Shown here: positions 18,658-64,000 of the stretch, piece after piece
Numbering within the stretch: position 1 is the first letter of the stretch
Layout of the letters: every line of letters begins with the position of its first letter
Assembly (NCBI GenBank): GCA_018902385.1
Contig: JABSSW010000024.1
Coordinates: forward strand, 579,738-643,737
DNA: 64,000 nt
From: Physcia stellaris
Taxonomy: Eukaryota; Ascomycota; Lecanoromycetes; Caliciales; Physciaceae
Reading direction: 5' to 3'
Position numbers and translations under genes: made by a program
The notes under the pieces: model-generated
Told to the model about the DNA's origin: nothing
Database searches by the model: none
The model's input: only the letters and a program-made list of their open reading frames with translations

Positions 18658-18860
18658 CCCGCCCTCGAACCGGGTTCGGGCTGTAAATATACAAAAAGAC
18701 AGTAATTAGACTTCATTAAAACCTTCCGTCTGACAAAACCCTGTGGGAAAAAGCCGAAACGTAAGGAAAAAGAGTGTAATAGTCAGAAATGAAAGACAAA
18801 ACGCCGTAAACAACTGTAACAAAATCAGATAGACTGCGAAGACTTGTATAGACTAGTAAA

Positions 18861-19400
18861 AGAATATCGAAATCGTGAAACCGTGACGCGGTAAGGAGGT
18901 ATGTTGCAGGCTGCAAAGGCTGCAAAGATTGCGAAGGCCGCAGAGGATGTAAAGGTTGTATAGATTAGTGAAAGAATATCGAAATCGTGAAACCGTGACG
19001 CGGTAAGAAGGTATGTTGCAGGTTGCAATGGCTGCAATGGCTGCAATGGCTGCAAAGGCTGTAAAGGTTGTATGAGTTATTGAAGGGCTGTCGAGATCGT
19101 GAAAGCGTGAAACGGTAAGAAGATATGCTGCAGTGGCTGCAATGATTGCAATGGTCGCAAAGATCGCAGGGGGTGTAAAGGTTGTATAGACTGTTGAAGG
19201 CGGCCGAGATCGTGAAACCGTGACGGGATAAGGAGGCTGCAATGACTGCAATGGATGCAAAGACCGCAGAGGGTGTAAAGATTGTATAGCGTATTGAAGA
19301 ATATCGAGATCGTGAAATCGTGAAACGGTAAAGCAGGCTGCAAAGGTCACTGAGAGTGTAAAGATTGTATAGGTCGCTAATGCTTGTATAGGCTACTGAG
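18861..19400. repeat. tandem array A, about 112-bp period, five copies
   Basis: The motif tcga(a/g)atcgtgaaa recurs at about 18,867, 18,979, 19,091, 19,204 and 19,304 (the fourth copy begins ccgag). Each unit continues with a gcggtaaggagg-like stretch, a variable number of ggctgcaa(t/a) nonamers and a ttgtatag ending. Copies differ by substitutions and by the number of the internal nonamers. Confidence 0.85.
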
Positions 19401-37459: not shown

Positions 37460-38967
37460 CCTAGTGGACATAGTCTTGGTGTTTTGGGGCCTGATGGACC
37501 ACCGGAAACAGTGGGTATAAAGCAGCTTTTGTATATACTATGTACACCATCGTTGTAATTACCGGTGGTCAATTCTGCTGTGTCACTCGGCCTTGCGCGT
37601 CTTAGAGGCGATGCGCTGCGTACAAAGAGATGGACGTCCAGCTTCACGTTGAGTAATGACGGCATTTGCATCGACGGGTAGATACAGGCGTTGGTACAGC
37701 TCAAACACGGTCACAGAATGCCTTTACGGATATTTATTAATGTTGTGCGCTTTTTAGCATACTCTGTCAAGATGTTGATTCTTCTGTGCTAGATCAGTTC
37801 ACTGGGTGGGTACGAAGAGACCACTGTAATTTCGCCACAAGGGATCGATCTCTCTCTCTTCTCTTTTCTCTTTTCTTTCTTCTTTTCGCATCCATCAAGT
37901 CAGCCCATCAAGTACAAAATACTCTCATCTACCGATTCTCCCTCTTTTCAGCTCCTGCAATTTCCACTCCCCAGGCACCACAACCACCACAATCAATCAC
38001 ACGCAACCAACTCCCCTCCCCCCAACCGCCGACGCCACTCCAAAATCTCCCTACACGTATGTACAGACCAGCGTCCAGATCTAAATTCACTTCTTTTCGG
38101 GGGGGTTCAAATAACCAATTTCCACTCCCAGTGTCTAGATACAGCCTTCACACCGAATTAAATAATTCGCAATTGCATGAGAAATCGGATTTTCTCGGGC
38201 TGCACGCATTCGAGACGACTGGGTTGGTTTCTATTGATGAGGAAAGTTTCGTGGGTTTTCTAGACTTCGGGGTGTCTTCCATTGACCGTCTGAGGGTTTG
38301 ACCATCTGACGACTTCGACACAGACACTCGCCCTAAACACAATTGAGTGCGGATAGAAAATAGGAATCACTTATCAAATCACGCTTGCTCGTTCTTGGAA
38401 TTCAGAAATTAATCTGATATGAATGGAGTTCTAGATTGACTCTATTTCCCAATTCGAACTTTCGTTGGTTCATTCGAATTCGGTGGATGATTGTGATCAT
38501 CTGAGATGGGACCCGCGCTCAATTTTCCTAGGGCCGAGTGAGGGAAGAAGGATTAAAAATTCTCAAAGATAGGTAGGGATGGTGGAATTCACAACCTCAA
38601 AGCCTTTTGACTGACTACCTGAATCTAGCAATTAGCTCAGGAAATCAGCGTTTTGGGACTCCGCTTATAGACAGCGAATATTGAGTACAGCAGCATAGAA
38701 TTATCAAAGAAGCTCATTCATGTGACTATGTCTCCCCATCCCCTGAAACCCTCATGGTGGATTATGACCCGCTCATCTCTTTGTCCTCGTCACTGATCTT
38801 TTTCGCTTTTTTTCCCTTTCTGAAACCCATTTCTCATTTACTTTCTCATCGTACTTCCTGCGTTTTCTCTCTTCCCATCCTTTGTCTTCCTCACTCCTCA
38901 TCCCTCCCTACCATCTCCTCTTCACACAACCCGCAACCCAAATCAAAGAATATTAAAACAAATCAAA
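37460..38967. other. gene-poor stretch with CT-rich leaders
   Basis: The 3' flank of the permease, then two pyrimidine-rich stretches (about 37,845-37,890 and 38,775-38,930) of the kind found in promoters and 5' leaders of highly expressed fungal genes. A 171-codon frame at 37786-38301 overlaps the first; its composition is low-complexity at the start and I do not support it as a gene. A GTATGT at 38059 could be the donor of a long 5'-leader intron of the small gene at 38968. Confidence 0.4.
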
Positions 38968-39141
38968 ATGACAAACTCCCATCCACCCAATCTCCCTTCC
39001 CCACAACCAACCAAACCAAACTCCCCCACCCACCAATCAACCAAACCCAGCCTCATCCCCACCTCCCACACTAAATACATATCTTCTCGAGCACCGGCTA
39101 TATTCTCTGGTCTGGGTGGTGCATTCTTGGGGAAAATATAA
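38968..39141 (+). CDS. possible small protein, 57 residues
   Basis: An ATG in a favourable context (atcaaaatg) directly downstream of a CT-rich leader opens a 57-codon frame. The first 35 residues are Pro/Ser/Thr-rich (MTNSHPPNLPSPQPTKP). The last 20 look like a structured or conserved segment (YISSRAPAIFSGLGGAFLGK) and the frame ends in TAA. I do not recognise a family. Support comes from leader type, start context and the non-random C-terminal segment. A longer frame on the opposite strand (38943-39419) is low-complexity. It could be a chance frame or the 5' exon of something longer. Confidence 0.4.
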   Translation: MTNSHPPNLPSPQPTKPNSPTHQSTKPSLIPTSHTKYISSRAPAIFSGLGGAFLGKI

Positions 39142-39895
39142 TAAACAGCGTGATCGCTTAACTGTATCAAAAAAAACCAAAAACACCAAAAAAGAGAGCG
39201 GGAAAAAATGAGAAGGAGAGGGCAATGACTTGAAAAGTAAATGATTGAGAACTGATTAAAGATGGATACATGAGACGAGACGAGAATCGGAAACACTGAT
39301 TTCAAGTATTTGTTTATCGAATGAAAGAGTTGGGTGGGTGGGGGGGAAAGGAATTTCGGGTTCTTATTACTATCATTTGGCAGGGAAGGGAAGGAGGAGC
39401 AGCAGCAATGGGACCTCAAACGGTAAAAGCAGGCTGGAATTTAAGAAAAGCTATCATGCAGGGGATTGGACTTTGACTGATTAGTTGGGGTAGACGAGGG
39501 GGATGGGAGGGCGCAAAGGAAGACATTTCTCCATCGTTTTCGAATCGGTAAGCTTAATGGTTGAGTGAGAAGTCGGTTGAGAGAACTTCGCGAGTGGGGG
39601 ACTTGCTTCCCCTGTGTTTCTCCTTCGAGGTAACAATGACGGAGGGTAGGGAGGGAGCGAGAAGGGTAGAAGGAGTGGTAAAAATGATACTGAGCAATGA
39701 ATAGTCGGAACCTGGTTGAGTAATCCTAGAGATGAGTATACTGATCAATCGAACAAACACCGAGCGATCGTATTGCTACTTTGAGAAACAAGAGAGGGAA
39801 GAAGACGAAGATTACATCGATCAAAGGTATTCAGCCAGTAACTCTACATCCATTTCGCTAAAACGTACATGAACTCGATAGAAGACGTGCACATC
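39142..39895. other. intergenic, no gene supported
   Basis: Between the small frame and the MLH3 stop. AT- and purine-rich with short open frames only. Confidence 0.45.
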
Positions 39896-42800
39896 TCAAC
39901 TATCGTCACTCGAACCCCTTTTCCGAGCCCCCTTCCACCCTCTCCAAGCCTCACAAAACCCACCTTCATCATTCATACCACCGTCTCCATTTATACAAGT
40001 ACCCGCAGCCGCAACCCTCCTGACCCCAAAAGCATTCATTCCCGGGCCAATCAAGGCCGAATCAGCTGTCATATCAACCAGCGGAATCATACTGGGCCTG
40101 CCATGGGCGCACTGGAACGGAAAGGCACAATCCGCCAACCTCTGGATAAGATTCTGACACTGTTCCACCGAGATCTCATCATTGAACATAACGGCGCTGC
40201 GGCAAGATCTCGAATTGAGCATATCGAGAATGCCTTGAGGACAGCTGCTGATACGGGAGAGCCAACCTTCGGCCTTGTTATTTCCGTCGTTTGTGTCGGT
40301 TGAAGCTCTTGTATAGGCACCACCTTGCCGTTTCCATACTTCGCCTCTCATGATCTCGATGAGGAGCTGAGGGTCGAGTCTACACTTCTCCGCGATGGAT
40401 TCTGGTAATGTTTTCACTGAGACTCTGCACTTTTCTAGCCTTGATGGTTTAGGTGATGGCTGAGGAGAATGTAGTCGGTATAGGATGCCCCAGTCGGCGA
40501 AGTGACGGGCATGATCGATGAACAATTTCCTTTCCTGCTCTGTTGTCTCGAAGATTATAGGTTTGATGAGTACTGTAGTCCTAATAGCTGAACCTAAACC
40601 TTGATAGCCCATTCCCCGAGTGAGGGGCTGGTCTTGCGATGCTATTGGTATGCATAGATCAGCAAGGAGTTTCTCAACGCGAATACGTTCATCGGCTGCA
40701 TGCTGGTCAACCAAAATCAGAACTCCGTTTCGCTTGATCGTGTGTGGTTCCGAACGACCACTTGCCTGTACATGGTCCATGCTGACAAGTATGAACTTCC
40801 TGTCAACCTGAGCAATGACATGTGCAGTTGCAAGGCCCCGCTTGGAGAGTTTGGTCTGATTGTAGGAGGAGGAGTGCGAGAAAGCCTTCTGTATATCAAC
40901 ATCCGAGCACCGGTGATGTCTTCCATGCAGTAACGCAGAGCTATCAAGGTTCAAGCCGTCAAAAGAGATCTGAGGTATCTTCTCTTCTGTCGGACTATAT
41001 GTTGGGTTCTCCCAGCCTTCAAGAATGTCATTTACCCAAGTCGACCTTTCGATAGCTGATGGAGTCCCAATGACACTTGATGACGACGTAATGTCGTTGC
41101 AAGAAAAATTAAGTCCGCGGATTGCTTTTGCGCCCCGAAGCGGAGTGGCCTTCCTCGTAGCCGTTCTCGAATGTTGAGGAACAATTAGCCCAGTGCGAGC
41201 ATTTACTGTTACGATGGCTTTGGAGACCGGATTCATCCAGTGAACAGTATCATCATTGCAACCAGTCCCAGTCAATTCAGTGGAGACTGAATTTGATGCG
41301 GCTTCGGTGACGATTGCCTTATCTGGACTACTTGTACCGCCAATACCTTCGTGAGATTGCGTATGACAAACAACGCCCTCTCCGCTCGTATATTGCTTTG
41401 AGCCATCTTCTCCGTCAGTGCAAAGCTTTGAGGATACCTTCTGGCTGGGCGCTGCCATGTTATTTTCATTTAAGTTTTGAACGTGGGCTTCCTTCCTAAT
41501 AATCTTGGCCAGAGTCTCTTGATTAAGGAGCTCAGATAGACTTTGGCGACTACCAGTTTTGATACGACTCCATGAATCGAAGGCTCCAGCACTGTACTGC
41601 GTCTGGCAGCTACTGAATTTCGGCAGCTCAGTATCGGCCAGAAGGCCGTGTACCGCAGCGAAGCGACCTGGCCTTTTTGAACATCTCTCTTGCCCCGATG
41701 AAGTGGCAGATCTAGGTCGTTCGCTAGTCGCAAGCTTTGCCCTCTCCTTAGCCATTGGTCTCTGACTATTCGCGAGAATAGCAGGTGGCGAAGAAAGTCT
41801 CCTTGAAGCGCCGCTCATGATTTCATGGTCATCACTGTTCTTGTTGCCATGCTTGACGATTCGTGGCATTTGCCGAGTTAGGAAATGATGGTCCTCGAGG
41901 AATCGAATGATCATCGCCCTCATAACACTAACAATCGCGGAAAGGAGTTCTTGCTCTCGATAAGTGCTTTGGGCACCCTTAAGTGTCGTGCTTTCCTCCT
42001 CCTTGGTGATAATCCGCAAAAAGAACATGGGCCAACGATCTATGCCCTTCCCACAGCCCTTCAGTTGTTTCGTGGTGAATCCTTCCTGCTTCAGGCGTGC
42101 ATGCTGAATCCCGTTCATAGCCGTCTCCGTATCCAAGATTTCGTCATCATTGCCAAATCTCGAGTCGACGAACAGTCGGTTAACCTCTTCATAAAGTACA
42201 TTGTCACCCAAGCCATGATCAAGGTAATTGATTCCAATTGAGATGAATTGTGTTCGCTTTGATGGCGCGGGTTTTAGTGAAATGGCACCTTCTACACTTA
42301 CGTAGGAGCTTCGAGCAGTAGTAGGGATCCAATCCTCCCATTCAGATGGTTCAATATGCCTGGCCTGGGAGAGAACATTTCGGACGGTCTCAATGTCAAG
42401 ATCTGGAGGGGCGGTTGGGTTCTTCAATATTCTCAACATTGGGCCTTCATTTGCTCGTATATACAGAACTTTGGGATCTCCCACAGTTTTTACTCTAACG
42501 GCAAGGGGATTACCCCATGCAAGCAGCAAGCCGACAAGATGCTTACTTAGAGCTTCCACGTGTCTAGCCTCTTGTTTAGGGTCTTTGAAATCTAAAGATC
42601 GTTGTTTTACTCGGACTGGCATATTGCCGAATACATCTCGAACACTAACTCTGGTACCATGCTCGCGGCAAGACAATTGGTGATATGACGGTGCTGGGAC
42701 CATCCTTGCAGCAGGCCTTGAATGGTGCAATATGATTGTCGCAGAAGAATGATTGAGATGGAAATGAGATGTAATCGTCAGTATCGAGAGAGCAGCGACC

Positions 42801-43160
42801 GAGGATAGAAACGTGCCATGACGCCCATGAGTGGATGATGTCCTACCGCTCTTTGAGGTGTCTATATAGTTAGCCAGATAGAAACAATAAAGGCTACGTT
42901 TCGGAAGGCTCACAATATGTTTTCGCCAAATTACCATCTTCCAAGAATTCCGATGGAGGAATTCCACTGCCATCATCCTCGACGTTGCAGCTGCCGCGTC
43001 CATAGTCAACTTCGACATCAAGCCTTCGAGCACCAGCATCCAGTGAGTTCTTCACGAGCCCAACAATAACACAATTCAATGAGGGTAGCGCAGTAGAGGA
43101 TTGGATTTGTTTTGCGACGTCGGGCGGCAAAGGCCGAATCGAATCTGTTCCACTTGACAT
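39896..43160 (-). CDS. MLH3: DNA mismatch repair protein MLH3 (MutL family)
   Basis: MutL homologue that pairs with MLH1 and nicks DNA in meiotic crossover formation and mismatch repair. Two exons (43160-42914, 42861-39896, intron 52 nt) give 1,070 residues. The N-terminal GHKL ATPase has VIVGLVKNSLDAGARRLDVE and NVEDDGSGIPPSEF, then STHGRHGTFLSSVAALSILT and HGTRVSVRDVFGNMPVR. A long disordered middle follows (about residues 450-760). The C-terminal endonuclease region has DQHAADERIRVE at 801-812, matching DQHA(X)2E(X)4E, and RSAVMFNDEISVEQC plus FPFQCAHGRPSM near the end. In the first motif K replaces the E often seen before NSLDAGA (VKNSLDA), a possible change at the catalytic glutamate of the ATPase. 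Confidence 0.92.
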
Positions 43161-51533: not shown

Positions 51534-52599
51534 TCAAGCCCGGCCTTTCTCCCACGCCTGGCCATAATCATCTGGGGAGATAAATTGTAAATTTGACAAA
51601 TCTGTACACACCACGAGCTTCACATACCAAACCCTACTTTAACGGCCAACCTTTATGCTTCTACGATTTCACAACGAGGAACCACGAGGAACCACGAATT
51701 TTCCTACTCTCTCAAGACCTAGATCCTAGAGCAAGATTTCTCCACGAGCAATACGTTCCTCCAAGTGCGGTCTCCATTCCTTACTTGGACGTTGACATTT
51801 CCAGCGAGGATGGTCAAATCTGTAAATCCTGACTTCACCTTCACCTTCATACAACCTGTACACACAACATTCAACACCGCCACCGAGCACCTTCACATAT
51901 CGGAGCTTTAACTGACGGCCGCGACTATTCACGCTTTCTACGACGTTATGGAAGAGCTCGATTTCCATATCTTTAAAATAGATTGATACAAGATTCCCCA
52001 GATTGCGATTGGTCTCGGTGTTTCCCTTTTCATTACGCTCATTAGTACCGGAGTTTTAGTCCTCAATTACTGCCCTGGACAGCGATCGGCTTTGGACCCT
52101 TCATCCACGACACTCACCAGAACGGATTTCTTATGTCATTTGTGTATAGCCTTCAAGGGGAAAGAGAATGTATAGGCTGGGATCAGCAATGGAAGGAGAG
52201 CGGAGCCGCGAGGCATGGGAAAGCCCAGATTGGAAACTGGATGTTGGGAGGAGGATAGGGTGGATGGCTGATGGGACAGCTCCTGTCATAACGCTTTGGT
52301 CAAGCGTTGGAAGCCTGCAGAGGCCAGCTAAGCAGAGTAGCCAGGAATTGAAAACCCCATTTAAAAGCTGTGCTTTTCCAAACCCTAGAGTTTTGTTCCA
52401 CTCTTCGCTTTTAATGCTGTTATTGAATGTTTCTTTGCCGAGACCCGGGTTTCATGGATCTCATTTCCTCCGCATCCAATTAGTGAAATTTAGCGTGTTT
52501 TCACGCGATCTTTTCTCTCTCACTTCAATCATCATTACTTCATCAAATTTACGTGTATATGTGTATAATTCAGTGAAAAAGTTCGATAGTATATAAACA
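51534..52599. other. intergenic, transition to AT-rich block
   Basis: The 3' flank of the Pro/Ser-rich gene. Base composition stays normal until about 52,550. A 142-codon plus frame at 52168-52596 runs into the boundary and has no recognisable content; I do not support it. Confidence 0.45.
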
Positions 52600-53084
52600 T
52601 TCAATAATTGAAATATGATTACATTCGAAATTCGTTTGAAATCATTAAATCATTCTCAAATGTTTCGAAACGTTTTCAAATCTTTCTATTGATCAAAACA
52701 CTCGTATGATCATTTCTTCGAATCATGATAAATTTTGAAGCATTCAAATGACACGCATAAATTCATTTTACATGTTATACAATAATCAAACGTTTTACGA
52801 TTCGAACGATGTTGTATATTGACATTTTTGAAATTGAATGTTTGATGTTTTCGAAATTTCGTGTGAAAATTGATCGAATAATCATTTCATTTACAATACG
52901 TCGATTTGACACATTTTGACGATCGATGTATGATATTTGAATTTCGTAAAAATTCATCAATCAATTTTTGAGTAAATACACGTCGATTTTGATGATCAAA
53001 ATTCGTTTGTGATTGATAATGATTTCAAACGATATATGCATTCGTATTGATCGAATTCATCATGTATTCGATCATTCGTTTCGT

Positions 53085-53912
53085 TCATTTGAATTGTTCA
53101 AATCGTGATATCGTTAATTCATTTCGAAATTGATTTGCACAATTCACATGATTCATATGAAAATTGTATTGCATTGCAATAATGAATTGTTTGATGACAA
53201 TTTTATTGAAATCGTCACGAAAAAACATATCGATCGTGAATCGAATTTTTCGTGATGTTTGTTCGTTTGTTTGTGAAATATATGCAATAATAACAAATGA
53301 AATCACGTGATTTCGTTCAAAATTTTTTCACACGAAACAATTGATCAATTCATTCACAATTCGATGTATTCATTGTTTTAATTTCAATTGTGATTTCGAT
53401 GCAACAACTATTTTTTTCAATTTTCGTGATATATTCATTGCATTGTCTCGTACGATGTCACAAATATCAACATTGAAAATCAGAAAAGTTTTGACGAAAT
53501 GAAAATTCGTGAAAAAATTGTCGATAAAACAAACGAAATGATGATGACGTAAATTGCGTGTAATTCGTTCGCAAAAAATATATATTGTTTTTTTTGTAAA
53601 TGAGAAATTAATTTTCATAGCAATGATTTCAGTAATGTTCTTTTTACGTTTTCGAATCGTTTTTGAAAATATATCAATTGTGATATCGTTTTTGTGATAT
53701 TCGAAATCATCGCGAAATTTTCACATCATGAAATCGTGTAAAATGTTTCTATCATTGATCAAAACGTATAGAACGAAATTCTTTCTCGTTGATTTGTGTG
53801 ATAAACGAAATTTGTTATTCATACGATCGTAAAATTCGACTGCGAACTCGTCAATTGCAAAATGATTTTCAAAACGAATGAACGAATATAATTGAAATTT
53901 GAAAACTATCAT
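53085..53912 (-). pseudogene. piggyBac-type (DDE_Tnp_1_7) transposase relic
   Basis: Three consecutive minus-strand frames in transposase order. At 53912-53721: ENHFAIDEFAVEFYDR and NKFRLSHKSTRKNFVLYVL, matching the IDEAM..F.GR...K...P.KP...G.K.Y pattern with Gly and Pro lost. At 53618-53370: RHHHFVCFIDNFFTNFH, the DNFFT block, then CDIVRDNAMNISRKLKKI, matching GTVR.N..G.P..LK. At 53306-53085: YNFHMNHVNCANQFRNEL, matching MGGVDxADQLRxxY. The acidic residues of the catalytic region survive partly, but the frames are broken and the substitutions fit the block's mutation pattern. The N-terminal half and the ends are not recognisable. Confidence 0.75.
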
Positions 53913-54849
53913 GAATCGTGCTTGAATAAACGTAATATTGATTAGTTAAACGAAAACAATAAGTTTGCAGAAACAAATAAATACAAAATGTTGAAATTGC
54001 AAACAATGTGCGACGTCAAATTTCAAATCACGTTAATTTCAACGTAAAATTAGAACATAATTCGTTGCTCGATCACATATCATATTAATTATTTATTTGT
54101 CAAATCTATTTGTCAAACATGTTCGTAACATTATTTTCTTCTTTTCGCGAACGTCGTTTCGACGATTCGTTGTTATTTCGAAATTGAAAAATCTTGTTGA
54201 GAATCTTGTTGATTGATTTAAATGTTTACAAAATTCAGAAATTTTACGATCATCATTTTTCATTTTCAAATGTTTCGTTATTGTTTCAAAACTCGATAAA
54301 ATTTAACAACAATTTTTGAAAATATTTTTGACACGATTCAGCTCTTCATGCGACGTAAATTCTGACTGTAAATAACATCGAAACGATAACGAAAATTAAA
54401 AATTGCGAAAACGTTGCGAGAATGAAATCGAAATGAATGTATTGAATTCGAAATTTTCAAATTTTAATCGAATGTAATTTCGATTAATGTCAACATGATG
54501 ATTTTTTTTCGAAAACGACGACGATTCGTTGAAAAATTTGATTCGTTGACGACGTTTTGAAATATTAAAATCAACGTTTTGAACGATTTTAAATTTGCAA
54601 TCGTGAAATGAGTGCGATGAAAATCGTTCATCACGTCGCGAACATTATCAAACTTTTCGTTGTCGACATAATATCATATTCGATTATACGATCAATTCGA
54701 TCAATTGACACGATATTGAAAACGATTGTAATGATATCGAAATTTCAAAATATCGTTCATTTCTCACTCGAAATTTTCGTTGATTATGACAAAATCAAAA
54801 ATTCATTGATTTGATTTTCGAATGAATCACGAGAATTTTTGCGCAAAAA

Positions 54850-56157
54850 TCAACAGTGAAACACATCGTAAATATGCATGATTTCAAACAATTCGAATCG
54901 ATATGAATTGTTCATACGTTGTAATATTTTGTAAAAATTTAGCTTTTTGTCATCGAATTTGTCAAACGATTTGATCGTTTTGATGTTTTGTCGATCGAAA
55001 AAAACGAAATTTTTTTCGACGTATTTTACGATTTTTCGATGTTTGTTGATTTGAATTGTCATACGTTTTTGAGTCATTTTTGCATGATTTCGTACGTAAT
55101 TGAAAATATTTTGCATTGTGTCGATAATATTTTTTGTTTTGACGATCAAAAATCGCTTTTTCGTTGTAACATACGAGATAAAATTTGATGAAAAACTCAT
55201 ACGAAAATGAAAATTTTTATTGATGAAAAATGAAAATAATTTTGTTGTTGCAAATATTGCGTTGTTGTTTGCAAATTCGATCATGAACAATTAAACATTT
55301 CAATCGTTTTGCATGTAATTGCAATATTGTCGCAATTGTTTTTCGATATTTTGATTGATTTTTTCGATTTGTTCATCGATTTTTGAATGAAAAACGATGA
55401 AGAATTTACATTTGATATCGAAAATTCGACAAAATGTTTGTCAAACGAACGATATGAATTGAAAGTTTCGATCAAACGTTATCGAAAAAAATAATTCATG
55501 TGTACGAAATACGTAATTGATGAATATTTTGATCATGATTTCAACATTGATATTCTCGTCGTCGACGATACAAAGCACGTAATGACGTTTTTTGTTAAAT
55601 TTGTCAATTATCGTGCATATGACATTATGATCGTGAACGTCGAACAATTCGATGATGAAATTCATTGATATGTCGATTCAACGTTGCAAAAATATAATCA
55701 AAAAAATAAATAAATCGTTTTTGCGATTTTTGAAAATTTTCGTGCGTTGATATTCATGACAATTACATACGTATCGACGAATCGTTTTGCGCATATTGAA
55801 TCAATAATAATCGTGACGTATAAAATTCTTCATGCGATTAAAATTTGAATGTTTCGAAACAAAGAATTCATGAATTTTTTTGAAAAAATCAACGAGTAAA
55901 GAAACATCGACGAGCATTCAAAATCGATTTTTTCGATACAAAACGTCGTTCTTTTCAATGCAATTTCGTAAATCAATTTCATTCATTGAAATGAAATTTT
56001 GTTCGATGATTTCACGATAAATCGTGCAATCATCGTCAATTCTGTTGACAACAAAAACTCGTTCATAAATAAGTTCGTCAATTTTCATCGCGTGAATCTC
56101 GAGTCGTTTCGAAATAAACAATATTGTTGAAAGCAGAAATGTGTAAAAAAGATACAT
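54850..56157 (-). pseudogene. Ty3/gypsy integrase relic, element 1
   Basis: Minus-strand frames in integrase order. 56157-55918 reads DDDCTIYREIIEQNFISM and DVLYRKNRF, the zinc-finger-proximal part. 55665-55441 is the integrase core start (NFIIELFDVHDHNVICTIID, then FSITFDRNFQFISFV, matching the SDRGxQFxS block). 55290-54850 is the core end and C-terminal part (FANNNAIFATTKLFSF, then KNFVFFDRQNIKT, YKILQRMNNSYRFEL, the GPYxILxxV-type motif). Reverse transcriptase of this element is not seen; to its right lies a different gypsy element, so this one is truncated or interrupted. Confidence 0.75.
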
Positions 56158-57001
56158 TAAAAATTATCGAGAAGTTTCGACTTATAAGTTTTAATTACAT
56201 GTGAAAAAAAAATTCTTTTCGTTTTTTTCGATGAAGTTAGTCATTTCAACGAACAGACATTCAGATCAAGCAAATCAAATCGTCGATGACATTTAACATT
56301 CTGTTTCAATCAAAAAAACGACAACGTCTCGATGTCAACAATGTTTCTGTTGTATGTTAACAATGTTTTCATTGTATGTCAATATACGTTCATCAAAAAG
56401 CTAATTTCTAATCATACTTTTCAATCATATCATATTTTTATTTCTTCAATAATCGAGCGAATCGAAGAATCATCGAGTCAATTATTGACGAAATCGATGA
56501 TGTAAATTCTGACGAAACAGAACTCGCGTCGACGAACGAACTTGATTTTGTTGTGAAAGATTTTCGAACGACGACAGCAAATCGTTGATTAAACCTAAAA
56601 GTGTTGAATTGATTGATTGCGAAAAGTTTCTTCGTATCGAGACGTTTAGTTGATTTGTTTTTAGTCGATCTGTCGATATCGTCTAGTCGTTCAAACAAAA
56701 AAATTGCAAATTTCATGACGAATTCGTAATCGTGAATTAAATTCATTGCGTTTTTTAATTTCGAAAAATTGCGTCATTCATCGAATTGCGAAAAATATTT
56801 TAATTAACGAACAAAATATTCAAAATCACGACGAACGATTTGACGTTTATTGATTAAACGTTCGATTTCAAAAAATTTTATCAATTCAATGTTTTTTTCA
56901 ACAAAAATGAAATTCGAATGAATAAATCGTGATTTACGATAAAAATTTTCGTCAAAAAACGTCGATTTCAATTGTGTCATTGATAAAACAAAATGTATAC
57001 G

Positions 57002-60000
57002 TCAATGCGTAAACAAATCAAATCGATAAAATAATTGATCAATTTTTTTTAAAATTTTGAAAAATTCAACGTATTGTTGATTAAATTTCGATTCAAACAT
57101 CGCAATAACAAAAATATCGTATTTATGATGTAATCGAATGTAAACATAATTTTCAAACTTCATATAGAAAAATTGATGTTTTCGATTATAATGATGTTTG
57201 ATTTGCATTTGAACGAACGCGATAAAATCAACGACTTCGATTCTGACGCGCGCAAAAAATGAAAATGACGTTTTTGTGAAAAATTTTCATTTCATGATCG
57301 ACTGCTTTGCATCGACAAATTTTCGCAAACTAAAAAATTGCATTGACGTGAAATCATAAACGATTTCATTAAATGTTTTGTCGATGACAATTGATCGATG
57401 ATTGTTAAAATGACGTTGAATCACAAACAATACATTTGATCAGTCAACAAAATTCTTCATGATAATCAAATAAAATCGAAAAACAATTTTAATAATTTGA
57501 TTAATGCGTTCATTTTGTTCGTCGATTTGAAAATGATACGTTGTCGAATACATGAATTTTATTTTCAATTTTTCAAATATTGTCGTTCACATATCGGAAA
57601 GAAATTTTCGATCTCTATTCGAAATAATGATTTTTGATAGATTTCAGTTTGCAATATCTAATCGATCGAGTAAAACGATGTTTCATTCTTTGACAAATCA
57701 TGTTTTTTTGTCAGAAATAACAAAATTACGCTTGAAAAATTTGCAAAACAAAGACATAATCGTATCAAATTCTTGACGCGATAAAAACAAAACGAAAATG
57801 AAATTCAAAGTAACAATGTGAAATGAAATCGAAAAAATCAATATTGATTGCAACGAGTCATAAAACGCGTGTCGACGCGTTTGATATATCTGACATTGAA
57901 AACAATGTTTCAAATAATCACGTAAATATCGTGACAAATTTCGAATGTAATAAAATGACGAAATTTTCTCGAAACATTTGACGTAATCAGCGTGATCATC
58001 GTCATGAATTAATCGCAAAATATTCGAAACGACAAAATGCGATATGCACAGTCGACAAAACTCGTAAACATGATCATCAATAATAATGTTTTCAAAGCGA
58101 AAAATAAAATCGTTTTTTTTTATAAAAAGAAAGATTAGCGACGCTTTCGTTGTTCAATTCAGCATTTTGATTCAAAATGTTGACAATTTTTTGTCAATTG
58201 AAATTTGTTTTGTAATCATTCAAAATGCGCTGTCTAAAAACGAAATTCATTTCGATTAATGAAACAATGAACAGAACATCAAATTCATCTTCATTGTGAC
58301 TAGACGAATTGATGTTGACGTTGATCAGTTTGAATAAAACATTCGACACGATATGTTGTTTTGTCAAATTTGTGACGTATTTTCAGATTGAAACGTTGTA
58401 TGTAATTAAACGTTTTGATTAGTCGAAAATTCAATTTGTCGATTGATGAAATAGTAAAAATAATTTGACTAGCGATTTTCAATGTTGCGTCATGATCGAT
58501 ATAAATAATGTTTTTATTTGAAATCTCAACAATATGACGAGTTTTCTTCAAAATTCATACAATGTCAACAATTTCAAATTTTGTTGATCAATATTTTGAC
58601 TTCGCGTCAATGACAAAACGATTGAAAAAAAATATCGACTCGATTGCGTGACGCGAAGAATATTTGTTTTTCAAATTATTTTTTAAAAAGAATTTTTTAA
58701 CATAATACAGCATGATTTCGAAATCAAACTTTTTGTTGACATCTAAATCAATAAATAATGATCGTTTGATGTCGACATGAATCAAATAGAAAAGTTTTAA
58801 CAACATGATTTGCAAAGTCTCGAAAAAAACTATTTCTAATTCAGTTGAATTTTTTAATCGAGTTTTGATCGAGTAAAATTTTCGAACATTGTCAATTGTC
58901 GAATCATGACGCAAAAACTCGATTTTACGATTTTGAAATGATTTGAAAATGTCAACATAATAAAGCACGTAATTTCGCATTCAATCGATCAAATGCAAAT
59001 AGATTTTTAATTGACGTAAAATACGTGAAAAGCGAAACTTCGATATTGTTTTAAACTTTTTCTCAGAAATAGTCAAATCAAATGAATCAACTTTCTGATT
59101 TAAAAGTGAAATCGACGAATAATCAAAAAAAGCTTTGACAATCTTGACGAATATGTTGTTTTCGACTAGAACGATAAAAACGCGTCGCAGATGAGACTCG
59201 TGCTTTTTTTTTATATGTGAAAAAATCACGATGTCATCGACATATGCGCGAGCGAATTCGCGAAACGTGCGAAATAATCGATTTATTTGACGTTGAACGT
59301 ATGTTGATGAGTTTTTGTAATTCATTATTGTCACATTGAAACTTTTTTGATTTCGATGATTAACAACGATGAGTTTATGTTTGTCGATCGAATGTACTCT
59401 TCATTGATAAAAAAAAGCAAAGCAATCGATGACGAATATATATTTGCAATCGCGAATCAAAATGAAAATATTCGTTTGAAATGACAAAGAATAAACATTC
59501 GATTGAATGATGACATTCAAATCACGAATGTCGACAATCATTTTGTTTTTTCGTTCTTTTTCAACTGTTTTTCAGACACAGAAAATCGAATAAAAAAAAG
59601 ACGTTGATTCGTTAATTCAAAACAACTTGTCGATACGATGAAACTCGTCGAATGTCTGATCGACTAACTCGCGATTTTTGATTTTTAGTGAATATATTTT
59701 GATTTTGTCAAATACACGCGTTTTTTAATCAGATTTGAATGATATACGCATTCATTTGTTTTCAGACATGCTAACAAAATCGATGTCGTGTCATAATGTC
59801 GAAAAATCGTTGACGATTTTGACGAAAAAGTCAACGATATTCGACTCAGAATTGTAAATAGTGACGTCGTTGAATAGCACAGTTTCTGATGAATTAAAAA
59901 CATTTGAGAAAATCTTTCTCAAATCAAAAAGTGACGCGATTGAGAAATCAGACATTTCTGACGTGCTAAACGATATGAAAACGTTGATTAGATTGAAAAA

Positions 60001-61718
60001 ATCGATGAATGTTGTTTCGATCTTGATAACGATAACAATTACATACGTTGTAACGCAGACAGAAATGAGTTTTTTAAATCATTCATCTTTATGAAAAGTT
60101 TTGAATTTCTTGATCGCGAAATGTTTGACGTCATTTAAATTCTCAATGTGAAAAACATTCGAGAAGTTTAGCTCAAATACACGATTTAGTCGATAATTGC
60201 GTGATATTTTGATTGAAATATTTTTATCATTGCGTATCAATATAGCAATAATGTTGACGTCAATAAAATGAACATACATGATCAATTTCGTGTCTTTTGA
60301 CTCGAACAGAAAATCGCGCGAAACAAATAAATTGACGTTGTGAATTGACACAATCATTTCAATATGCGACGAAATAATAACGATTTTCTTTAAATGTATT
60401 AAACGTTGAAACGACGTCTTTGCTGATTTCATTTCGATAAAAATTGAAACGTCGATATTTTCAATTACAATTTGTTTAATTTTCATATCAATAATGAACT
60501 GCTCAAAGTCGATGATATCATTGTCAATTAACATGTTGATTTTGAGATTGTTCATCAAATGAACTTCTCGTTGAATAAACGAGATGACATTTTTGTCGTT
60601 TTTCGATTCTGACAAATAAATGTCACAGACAGCATATTTTCATGTTTGATGACGATTCGTGCTCAGATCACGAATTTGCAAAAGAGAAATCATAATTCGA
60701 ACGAACGTATTTGACGTCTGAATTTTGAAAAACGTACGATTTATCAATGAAACGTCGACGTCAATGTTTAAACAAACATTTGTTGACTCGACGATTAGCG
60801 AAAAAAATATTCTAACTTTGACGTAATTTCAATTTTTGAAATCATAGTCGATATCGACGTCAAGAACGAAATTGACGTTGAAACGTAAAATAGTTTTTTC
60901 GAATAATGAAACGATTGACGAAATCGATGACATCGATTCGAACGAAACGAAATTTTTGATAATTTCGATAGACGACACGAATACGACAAAATACACGATT
61001 TCGAATTTCGACGAATCAATTGTGAAAATTTTTTCATACTGATTTTGATTAACGTTGAACAATTGACACGAAAATGCTCGATGCAAATTATTATTGAACG
61101 AAAAAATTTTTACAATGACGACAACGAGATTTCGACGTCGTCGCAAAAACAAATAAAATGAAATTGACAATTTTCATCATTTTGACTATTCGATTCGTAA
61201 TATGTAAAATTTTCATCGTCAACGTGATTTTTTTTTTTGCTTTTGATTTTGTTTTTCGTGAAAGTTTTTTCAAATTCATTTTTTCGTCGACAACGTATGT
61301 TTTGATTTTGTCAACACGATTATCGAATTTTTTTCGTTTGTTTGAGAATCAGATTTCGTTTTCGCTTGATTTTTCGAATCTGATTCGCTTTCGAAAATTA
61401 ATTGAAAAAATTGCTTGACGAATGATAAAACGATTGCAATTGAAACAAATTTTTCGACGAAAAATTGATATTGATTTTTTTGATTTTGATAAGTTGAATT
61501 CTTGAATTGATATGAAATGTAATCAAATGAAAATCATTCTTCATACTGTTCTGAATAAAGATAAGAATAAGAAAATTGAAAATCGTTGACGTCAAATTGC
61601 TGTTGATAGTCATTTTGTCGCTTTCGATTCTGTTTATTAAATCGATTAATTCGATCAGCAATATTTTGAAATCAACGTCAAAGTTGTTAGAATCACGTTG
61701 ACGAGCAGTCATATTCAT
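57002..61718 (-). pseudogene. Ty3/gypsy polyprotein relic, element 2
   Basis: Minus-strand frames in gag-pol order, read from high to low coordinates. 61718-61398 is possibly gag. 60615-60079 is protease-like (NLKINMLIDNDIIDF, IEMKSA, LFESKDTKLIMYVHFID). 59334-58981 is reverse transcriptase with the catalytic FARAYVDDIVIFSHI. 58980-58588 is the RT connection and RNase H start. 58551-58300 is the RNase H end (YIDHDATL, then LNFRLIKTFNYIQRFNLKI). 58018-57698 is the integrase zinc finger and core start (HCFQCQIYQTRRHAFYDSL). 57208-57002 is the integrase C-terminus (RKHQFFYMKFENYVYIRLHH). The integrase differs from that of element 1, so these are two families. No LTRs could be found by eye. Confidence 0.78.
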
Positions 61719-64000
61719 TCAGACATTTTTTTTAACGTTCAACTGAGTCAGAAAGTTGAATAAAATAATATTTTTCGCGAAGTTCAGAAATTTGCGCTCG
61801 AAAATCAAGCTCAAAATTGTTTCAAAATGATACATTGATGAAAAACGAACGAATAATCGACGATTTTGAAATATCGTAATATATTTTGCATGTAAACACG
61901 TGATTTACGTTCACGACGAGCATCGACGTAAATATAAAACTCAATTTGTAATTTTTCAATGTTACAGAATTTTTTTGAATCGCTTTTATTGTGCGTGCAT
62001 CAACGTTCAATTGTAATTTTTTTGAAAAAAATTTTTTCGATTTCAGTAAATTTCGAATTGTATCAGCGTAAAGCTTCTTTTTTAAAACAAATAGTCACAA
62101 ATTCTTTGATTCTAGAATCAGACGTGATTTTGTTCAAATTTTTGAAATGATCGATAAAAATGTAAACATTTCGATAAAAAGTTGTGTTTATCGAAATTCA
62201 CAATAAATTGATCAATATCGATCGAATTTTCATAATTCGAGTCAAAATAATCAACATTTTCAGCAAATTTGATGATCGATTGCAAATCATTATTTTGTTG
62301 ACAGAAAAAACTTTCAACAGCGAATCAAAATACTGAAACGAACGCGATAATCACGATCATGATGTCATTTCATAAAGTCGAATTTATTTCAATTGACGAC
62401 GAAATTGTTGAAAACATGATGCGACGAATTTTTTTTTCAATCTGAATGAAAAAAATGTTTGATTATTGTTAATTTTGAGCGCTGACTGAATGCATCATTG
62501 TTCGTTTTGATTCGACGATTTAATTGACGAGAAATATTGATTCACTATCAAAATTGATAATGAGAAAATAGCTAAATGCTCGTGACGAGAAATTAAAACT
62601 ACGAATTTTTGAAACGCTATTTCGTCGAAATTTCGATTTGACAAAGACATCAAATCGATCAAAAACAATAAATTGAACGAGCGTTTTTAATTTGATTACG
62701 CGCGACATCGATGAAAAAATTGAATTATTGAACGTTGAACGATAATTTCAAATCGAGACAAAAAGTTGCGAAAAATTTTCGATTGTTTGAATTGCTGAAT
62801 ATCGACACGAAATTGATTGATAACGTTTTGCAATGAAACAATGTCGTTGATTCACTGAGATTTAATAAAAAAATCATGATTTTGATTTTGAAAATCGAAA
62901 ATTTTGACAATCAAAATTTGAATCGCACGTTGATTCTCGTTATTGAATGTAATGAAACGAAGTCGATCAAGCGAACGCTAAAACGTTGCGAGTTTAACTT
63001 TCGCATCTCGTGTTTATATATTCGAAGTTTCACGAACTTTTTTCTGTTTTTTTAACAATTAATTCTATTATGTGTTTAGCATTTATCATAGCAATTAATA
63101 TTATTATTCGCACATTTTAGTCACGCAATGTTTACATTTTTACAATTCTAATTGCTTTACATCAAGAATTGTTCGATTAAAAATATTCAATTCAACAAAT
63201 GCGTTTCGTCGTCGCGAAATTCGTTCGCAAACTCGTGATCGTGCGATCGTATTGATTGCATCACAATCAAACATCATTTTATCAAGCAATTTTTTTATGT
63301 TTTTTCTTTATCAATCGAGTTACTGAGTTGTTTGATGATGCTCAATTCGAAAAATTTTGATTAAAACAATGATTTTGTCGATTTTGATGATGTCGACGTT
63401 TCAATTAAACACATTTCAATTTTCGAATTTCTGATTTCAAATGTTGATCAATTTTTCAATTCAGCATTTGTTACGCATTCTAATCAAAATGAAACACAAC
63501 GAAAAAATGATTTTGTTTCGTTGTCGTCAAATAGCGATGTCGCTGTGTTTGCTGCTGTCGATTCAAACGTGATTTTCAAACAAATGAAAATGCGTATCAA
63601 AATGTTGAAAACTGAATCAAAATTCAATGATTTTAAAATATTTCTGATTAAAACGAAAACGAAACGTGATCGAAATCGTCGTCGTCGTCGCAACAACGAT
63701 AATCAATATGAAAATTCGTTTTCGCATATCAAGAAACGAATCGCACGATCAAAATCTCAAACACGCAAAAATGCTAAAATTGAAACAATTTGAAAAATTG
63801 ATTGCGTGATTGCGAAAATATATCGTTTTCGATTTTGTTAATTTTCAAAAAAAAAATGAAAACAAGTTGATCGACGTCGCTTTTGATAACGACAAAAAAA
63901 ATCAATGACGTAATTATGTTGATGTTCAATTTGAAAACAAACATGAAAACAATATAAAGATTATTTGTTAACGTTGTTTAGCAATTCGATAATTCGTGTC
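61719..64000. other. AT-rich, unassigned
   Basis: A continuation of the mutated block with short frames on both strands that I cannot assign; part is probably the gag and leader of element 2. CT and AG are slightly more frequent here than at 53-58 kb. Confidence 0.4.

Follow-up and report, generated by a model that had tools for sequence, protein, structure and literature searches.

Which process could strip DNA of cytosines that stand before another cytosine, while leaving those before adenine and guanine in place? This question is raised by the last 11 kb of a 64,000-nucleotide stretch of the Physcia stellaris genome (assembly GCA_018902385.1, contig JABSSW010000024.1, positions 579,738 to 643,737), which is referred to here as the window. 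The block holds relics of transposons on the minus strand, a piggyBac-like one and two of the Ty3/gypsy type (A and B), and has lost nearly all of its CpC and much of its CpT dinucleotides (together CpY). We propose that it is a stack of transposon copies mutated by a repeat-directed C-to-T process of the kind of repeat-induced point mutation (RIP), with an inverted order of targets in which CpC is preferred over CpT and both strongly over CpA and CpG; the probability of this reading is put at about 85%. A cytosine is converted preferentially when followed by C and next when followed by T, and is nearly immune before A or G. Both strands are affected, ordinary genes in the sampled sequence are left alone, CpC is saturated, and the copies have been hit largely independently.

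Composition of the block

The left edge of the block is abrupt. A likelihood change point places it between 52,521 and 52,544, a range of 24 bp, with about 52,526 as the estimate, and the last CC to the left is found at 52,476. On the right the block extends to the end of its contig (C24, 643,737 bases). The sequence from 1 to 52,476 has a normal composition. Contamination was rejected, since the block is joined to ordinary sequence on its contig and its signature occurs on many contigs. Within 52,600-64,000 the GC content is 0.289, compared with 0.49 outside. The observed/expected ratios in the block are 0.00 for CC/GG, 0.34 for CT/AG, 1.27 for CA/TG, 2.95 for CG and 0.41 for TA, against 0.97, 1.07, 1.11, 0.84 and 0.69, respectively, in 1-52,600. 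Expressed per kb, CC+GG drops to 0.2 (118.6 outside) and CT+AG to 35 (133 outside), while CA+TG (139 outside, 131 in the block), CG (51.1 and 61.5) and TA (44 and 52) remain abundant. The base composition of the block predicts about 480 CC+GG, and one CC and one GG are observed, which excludes chance as the cause of the loss.

These counts bear out the first-pass annotation, made from the sequence alone, which had described CpC/GpG as almost absent over 11 kb, CpT/ApG as rare, and CpA/TpG and CpG as abundant. The single cases of CC at 56,594 and GG at 57,596 that it had pointed out are both exact, and in 53,041-53,160 all 19 cytosines do precede A (11) or G (8), with neither AG nor GG present. 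Depletion of CpA with an excess of TpA, the pattern that it had named as speaking against its claim, was looked for and is absent, the TpA ratio falling from 0.69 to 0.41. Its description of the process as saturated holds for CpC and only in part for CpT, the loss of which is partial in this block and almost total in some other stretches of the genome.

The indices in common use for the detection of RIP do not respond to this pattern. TpA/ApT is 0.41 and (CpA+TpG)/(ApC+GpT) is 1.35 in the block, and 0.68 and 1.29 in normal DNA. The thresholds for RIP-positive sequence in one survey are over 1.15 and at most 0.75, respectively (PMC7882544), so the block would be scored as free of RIP. Mutation restricted to CpY was simulated on the normal 52 kb of the window, with its two rates tuned manually until CC and CT agreed. 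The simulation comes near the rest of the dinucleotide table, with the worst fit at CpG (51 per kb simulated, 62 observed). Models of CpA-type, CpG-type and uniform C loss, simulated in one trial each, do not fit the block.

Comparison with un-mutated copies

Two un-mutated copies of the gypsy A element are present in the same genome, on contigs C5 (L036, also designated L043) and C12 (L037, also designated L044). They are 95% identical to each other and differ without CpY bias, with C>T at CpC in 23/489, CpT in 20/431, CpA in 17/446 and CpG in 14/459 sites; the C12 copy carries one TAG in the searched frame. In the alignment of window positions 55,325-56,108 with L037, 207 of 784 sites differ, and 203 of these are C>T or G>A. 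Conversion affects 119 of 126 CpC and 74 of 82 CpT sites, and 6 of 102 CpA and 4 of 124 CpG sites. The comparison with L036 gives the same picture (CpC 115/124, CpT 74/84, CpA 9/99, CpG 11/128), with 209 of 229 differences being C>T or G>A. Four further mutated copies of 2.27 kb each (L045-L048), the next-best loci from the search with the gypsy A pol frame, were compared with L044 and show conversion at 1112/1213 CpC, 878/1160 CpT, 87/1148 CpA and 73/1129 CpG sites. The alignments thus demonstrate the cytosine-mutating process with CpC/CpT preference that had been suggested from composition. CpA and CpG are largely kept, as had been stated, though not absolutely, about 1-10% of them being converted.

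Classical CpA-directed RIP, or decay of 5-methylcytosine (5mC) at CpG, might be misread from base composition as such a process. Transposons are indeed targeted, and both RID-like and DIM-2-like genes are present in the genome. Conversion rates of 6% at CpA and 3% at CpG against 94% at CpC, the retained densities of CpA/TpG and CpG, the indices on the RIP-negative side and the misfit of the simulated alternatives leave practically no room for it. The loss of CpG with gain of TpG/CpA that marks CpG decay and the RIP-like mutation of basidiomycetes is absent, CpG being denser in the block than outside and converted at only 4 of 124 sites. Methylation without mutation, as in the methylation induced premeiotically of Ascobolus, does not apply, as the sequence itself is altered.

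The base 3′ of the cytosine decides conversion, with little influence from the preceding base: among the four possible 5′ neighbours the rates, pooled from nine comparisons in which copies recur, range from 0.91 to 0.95 at CpC and from 0.69 to 0.79 at CpT, and are lowest after G. Both strands are affected to a similar degree, the window copy being changed at 84 of 89 CpY sites of one strand and at 108 of 118 of the opposite strand. These observations bear on an APOBEC-like deaminase acting on the reverse-transcription intermediates of retrotransposons, which would account for C>T hypermutation of retrotransposons involving CC. APOBEC enzymes, however, are guided by the 5′ neighbour of their target, whereas here the 3′ base is decisive, and it is the first C of CC that changes, giving TC. 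The two strands are hit about equally, and the piggyBac-like DNA transposon is mutated too. We regard such a deaminase as highly improbable.

An artefact of assembly or base calling at modified cytosines, such as nanopore C-to-T errors at methylated CpY, would agree with the confinement of the signature to repeats in the examined sequence. A modified cytosine should disturb the reads of its own strand only, whereas in the window copy both strands are changed. The same assembly contains copies at graded stages of mutation alongside un-mutated ones, and long frames without frameshift are present. This explanation is very unlikely.

The context of the mutations is also reflected in the stop codons of the relics. 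The 66 listed matches of the gypsy A pol frame contain 398 TGA, 4 TAG and 133 TAA in frame, and the 93 listed matches of the reverse transcriptase frame contain 498, 16 and 141, so that TGA makes up about three quarters of the in-frame stops. This excess agrees with the conversion of TGG into TGA by CpY mutation, with CAA, CAG and CGA mostly spared; the scarcity of TAG may be due to its conversion into TAA. The relics stay fairly readable since stops arise chiefly through TGG.

Distribution across the genome

The genome (44.0 Mb, 147 contigs) was searched for relatives of the elements in the block. A single copy may yield several matches, and scoring was confined to the top candidates (90 of 560 for the reverse transcriptase frame, 150 of 527 for RVT_1, 59 of 1,352 for the gypsy A pol frame and 37 of 37 for piggyBac). 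At least 93 matches were obtained for the reverse transcriptase frame, at least 150 for RVT_1, at least 66 for the gypsy A pol frame and 25 for the piggyBac family. The signature recurs across many contigs and is shared by several element families. A conserved 5.8S rDNA word has no exact match in the assembly, so that the rDNA may be missing, left out or altered.

Forty stretches at round-number positions fixed beforehand (20 of 1.5 kb and 20 of 1 kb) were sampled in addition. Eight carry the signature (L051, L057, L064 in part, L071, L075, L080, L081 and L088), 31 do not, and one is ambiguous. The ambiguous sample (L070, C2:1,000,001-1,001,000) has a GC content of 0.41 and 54 CC per kb with normal CT (133 per kb), and is possibly an early stage in which CpC alone has been hit so far. 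The classical change of CpA to TpA is seen in none of the 40 samples; the lowest CA+TG density in the set of 1-kb samples is 105 per kb (L088, GC 0.23). Ordinary genes are spared in the sampled sequence.

Order and tempo of the mutations

The mutated loci and their flanks were divided into 317 half-kb bins, with some redundancy: L005 covers a portion of the window block again, and L025 overlaps with L028. Across these bins CC goes first and CT later. In the 283 bins with fewer than 5 CC per kb, CT ranges from below 5 (7 bins) to above 70 per kb (20 bins), and the means of the bin classes stay steady at 115-135 per kb for CA and 53-65 for CG. This cross-section suggests that CpC was mutated before CpT in time as well.

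The change from the un-mutated copy L043 to the mutated copy L045 gives an indication of tempo. Over 2,268 bp, 503 changes are C>T or G>A, whereas reverse transitions number 11 and transversions 6, and 491 of 583 CpY sites are changed. The same copy could have been reached by slow decay, that is, by DIM-2-type methylation of CpY during vegetative growth and later spontaneous deamination, spread over a long time with no burst of RIP. Mutation that is C>T only, depends on the 3′ base and is restricted, in the sequence examined, to transposons would be expected of such decay, and the residual CpT fits a graded process. The small number of other changes in L045 argues against a long time (25 transversions and 11 reverse transitions when counted from L044), and in Pyricularia oryzae 5mC in the MAGGY element is about tenfold higher at CpG/CpA than at CpC/CpT (PMC7979813). 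Slow decay is therefore considered quite unlikely. In L046-L048, 11 to 55 transversions are counted over both references.

The homology trigger expected of RIP is reflected unevenly in the copies: repeated families are hit, one single-copy element is intact, and one pair of 95% identity is not hit. The single-copy element (L038 on C39, the next relative of which has 31% identity) is un-mutated as RIP predicts, in this one case.

Several observations weigh against the proposed process. The two gypsy A copies on C5 and C12, which differ at about 5% of sites, are un-mutated despite being repeated, and L035 on C52 is un-mutated as well, its best mutated relatives having about 50-60% protein identity. 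Either the process is inactive on these copies now, or they arrived after the last sexual cycle. Fifty-three of the 65 unconverted CpC sites are explained by the change of the 3′ C to T, after which they are no longer CpC, and 12 are not; CpA and CpG are still converted at the low rates given above. The neutral divergence of L045, given above as low, varies with the copy used for comparison, 6 transversions being counted from L043 and 25 from L044. Finally, leftover CpT sites coincide between copies slightly above the independent expectation in 6 of 6 copy pairs (from 17 observed against 16.2 expected to 28 against 18.2). As this excess is only slight, the copies were hit largely separately.

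Among the four un-mutated retroelements (L038, L035, L036 and L037), three have many mutated relatives. The persistence of un-mutated copies points to a recent arrival or to a pause of the process.

Candidate enzymes

The first-pass annotation had recommended a look for RID/DIM-2-type methyltransferases. A search of the genome with PF00145 gave four matches, which fall in three genes; one of these is DIM-2-like and the remaining two are RID-like. The DIM-2-like gene (L002, C3) matches PDB 9bap_A, labelled DNA (cytosine-5-)-methyltransferase, with an E value of 2e-181. We take 9bap to be DIM-2 of Neurospora crassa from its residue numbering, the catalytic cysteine at chain position 928 corresponding to the published C926 with an offset of 2. 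The other two genes, which we provisionally call RID-like on the basis of sequence motifs, match PF00145 at positions 2-323 (L001, C6) and at 2-160 and 254-322 (L003, C5). Spliced by hand, their products have 510 residues (C6) and at least 798 residues (C5), and both carry PPCQ. They share 39% identity over 184 residues of the methyltransferase domain; the genome thus holds two divergent RID-like genes, one of them short. To our knowledge, RID-class genes are confined to Pezizomycotina, which would make the host a filamentous ascomycete.

In the alignment of the DIM-2-like protein to 9bap, N1170 is replaced by A (query residue 831), R1175 by I (query residue 836), K1143 by S and T1144 by F, and R1145, T1164, T1166, T1167 and D1173 are retained. 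The alignment is local, with 45 of 100 residues identical in the aligned block, so that a shift is possible, and 9bap is the sole DIM-2 compared. N1170, for which a contact with the +1 flank of the opposite strand is reported, lies with R1175 in a DNA-contacting loop (PMC11315935). The replacement of N1170 and R1175 may serve as a lead only.

Both RID and DIM-2 are able to cause RIP in N. crassa (PMC11969663), and an enzyme of either class could therefore carry the altered preference. We infer that the process is probably RIP proper, premeiotic and triggered by homology, and that the mutating enzyme may be a C5 methyltransferase of the RID or DIM-2 class that reads the +1 base differently. This requires nothing new beyond the changed +1 preference. 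The same contexts would also be obtained if a RID/DIM-2-class enzyme methylated, and thereby protected, CpG and CpA in repeats, and a repeat-targeted deaminase converted the unprotected cytosines at CpC and then CpT. This needs an extra activity, and we consider it unlikely. If it were true, the pattern would be the negative image of ordinary fungal methylation, and loss and retention would be the work of two activities instead of a single enzyme whose preference has shifted.

Comparison with known systems

The RIP-like process proposed for P. stellaris shares with RIP of N. crassa the C>T changes on both strands of transposon copies, the sparing of genes, the sharp border and the presence of RID-like and DIM-2-like genes. 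It differs in the order of contexts, which is CpA>CpT>CpG>CpC in N. crassa (PMC5496416) and CpC>CpT>>CpA~CpG here, and in its negative indices. RIPCAL places CpT above CpA in the Tad1 family of N. crassa (PMC2621366), and dominant CpT changes occur in alignments of RIP-capable fungi (PMC7882544). In Magnaporthe oryzae, Botrytis cinerea and Sclerotinia sclerotiorum, which have RID class enzymes, CpT is likewise hit and ranks first or second among the targets (Amselem et al. 2015, PMC4352252). It is hit there alongside CpA in 10-40% of transposable elements, CpC being unmentioned in the main text, whereas in P. stellaris CpC is the leading target and CpA escapes. Trichoderma reesei also shows C>T changes in repeats, and its order, printed as 'CpA~CpG CpT>CpC', is nearly the reverse of that found here (PMC5496416). 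CpC is altered in Monilinia through double changes of CpC to TpT, beside the classical change of CpA to TpA (PMC8959702), whereas here CpC is the main target. In Rhizoctonia solani AG8, C>T changes include a raw CpC single-nucleotide polymorphism every 214 bp, denser than at CpG (370 bp). The authors infer a CpG bias, genes are hit and the polymorphisms lie between nuclei (PMC4014442), in contrast to the spared CpG and untouched genes of P. stellaris. The methylation of MAGGY in P. oryzae is likewise a repeat-directed cytosine modification with the same split between CpY and CpA/CpG; there, CpG/CpA carry the 5mC and CpC/CpT hold little of it, so that the methylated sites mirror in reverse those mutated here (PMC7979813).

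No CpC-preferring RIP was found in the top-ranked listings and the consulted passages of open PubMed Central papers, subscription papers lying outside the scope of the search, and the novelty of the pattern is provisional. A k-mer survey of 1,239 fungi reports that RIP-like defences share a CpA preference (Badet and Croll 2025, PMC12543289), to which this genome is an exception. Surveys based on indices seek loss of CpA and gain of TpA. Since the mutated repeats of this genome score as RIP-negative, other species with CpC-type mutation may be overlooked. As a natural switch of specificity, the RID-like and DIM-2-like proteins could, in comparison with CpA-type relatives, reveal the residues reading the 3′ base and the mutating enzyme.

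Transposon relics and other features of the window

The features of the block are listed in Table 1. The piggyBac-like relic is also matched in the search of its own genome (53,034-53,885, 4 TGA, E 2.7e-5). The SH3 match of relic A reaches 23.5 bits, under the Pfam cut-off of 30. Relic A has 70.5% DNA identity to L041 over 53,906-55,323 and 73.6% to the un-mutated L037 over 55,325-56,108, where the differences are almost only C>T/G>A; its un-mutated relatives sit on C12 and C5. The reverse transcriptase/RNase H frame of relic B contains six in-frame TGA and neither TAA nor TAG, and the DNA of this relic is homologous to L025 across 56,823-61,173. A repeat search for long terminal repeats or terminal inverted repeats within the block gave short matches only, and the Rfam search of the window gave nothing at gathering scores.

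Table 1. Features of the CpY-depleted block (window coordinates)
Feature	Position	Strand	Basis
CpY-depleted block (CpC and CpT lost)	52526..64000	both strands affected	dinucleotide counts, change point; ends at contig end
piggyBac-type transposase relic (DDE_Tnp_1_7)	52686..53945	-	Pfam PF13843, E 1.7e-8, TGA read as W
Ty3/gypsy relic A, 3′ part	53906..56108	-	integrase H2C2 in frame 55,291-56,163; SH3_Tf2-1 in frame 54,784-55,290
Ty3/gypsy relic B, integrase region	56804..58255	-	Pfam Integrase_H2C2, E 4.4e-9; SH3_Tf2-1, E 1.1e-4 (under cut-off)
Ty3/gypsy relic B, reverse transcriptase/RNase H	58300..59724	-	Pfam RVT_1, E 3.5e-7; RT_RNaseH, E 4.4e-5 (just under cut-off)
Open frame of relic B upstream of reverse transcriptase	59725..61185	-	no Pfam match; homologous mutated copies elsewhere in genome

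Three further observations concern the normal part of the window. The region 38,001-40,000 has observed/expected ratios of 1.26 for CC and 0.59 for GC, unlike the remainder of the window. A direct repeat of about 400 bp with an offset of about 112 bp and 79% identity, of the short tandem type, is located at 18,844-19,343, in a 2-kb bin with a GC skew of 0.195 and no CpY loss. A frame of 1,047 residues at 39,896-43,039 on the minus strand matches MLH3 (PDB 6shx_B, E 2.1e-25), so that an MLH3-like gene of mismatch repair lies at a distance of about 9 kb from the block.

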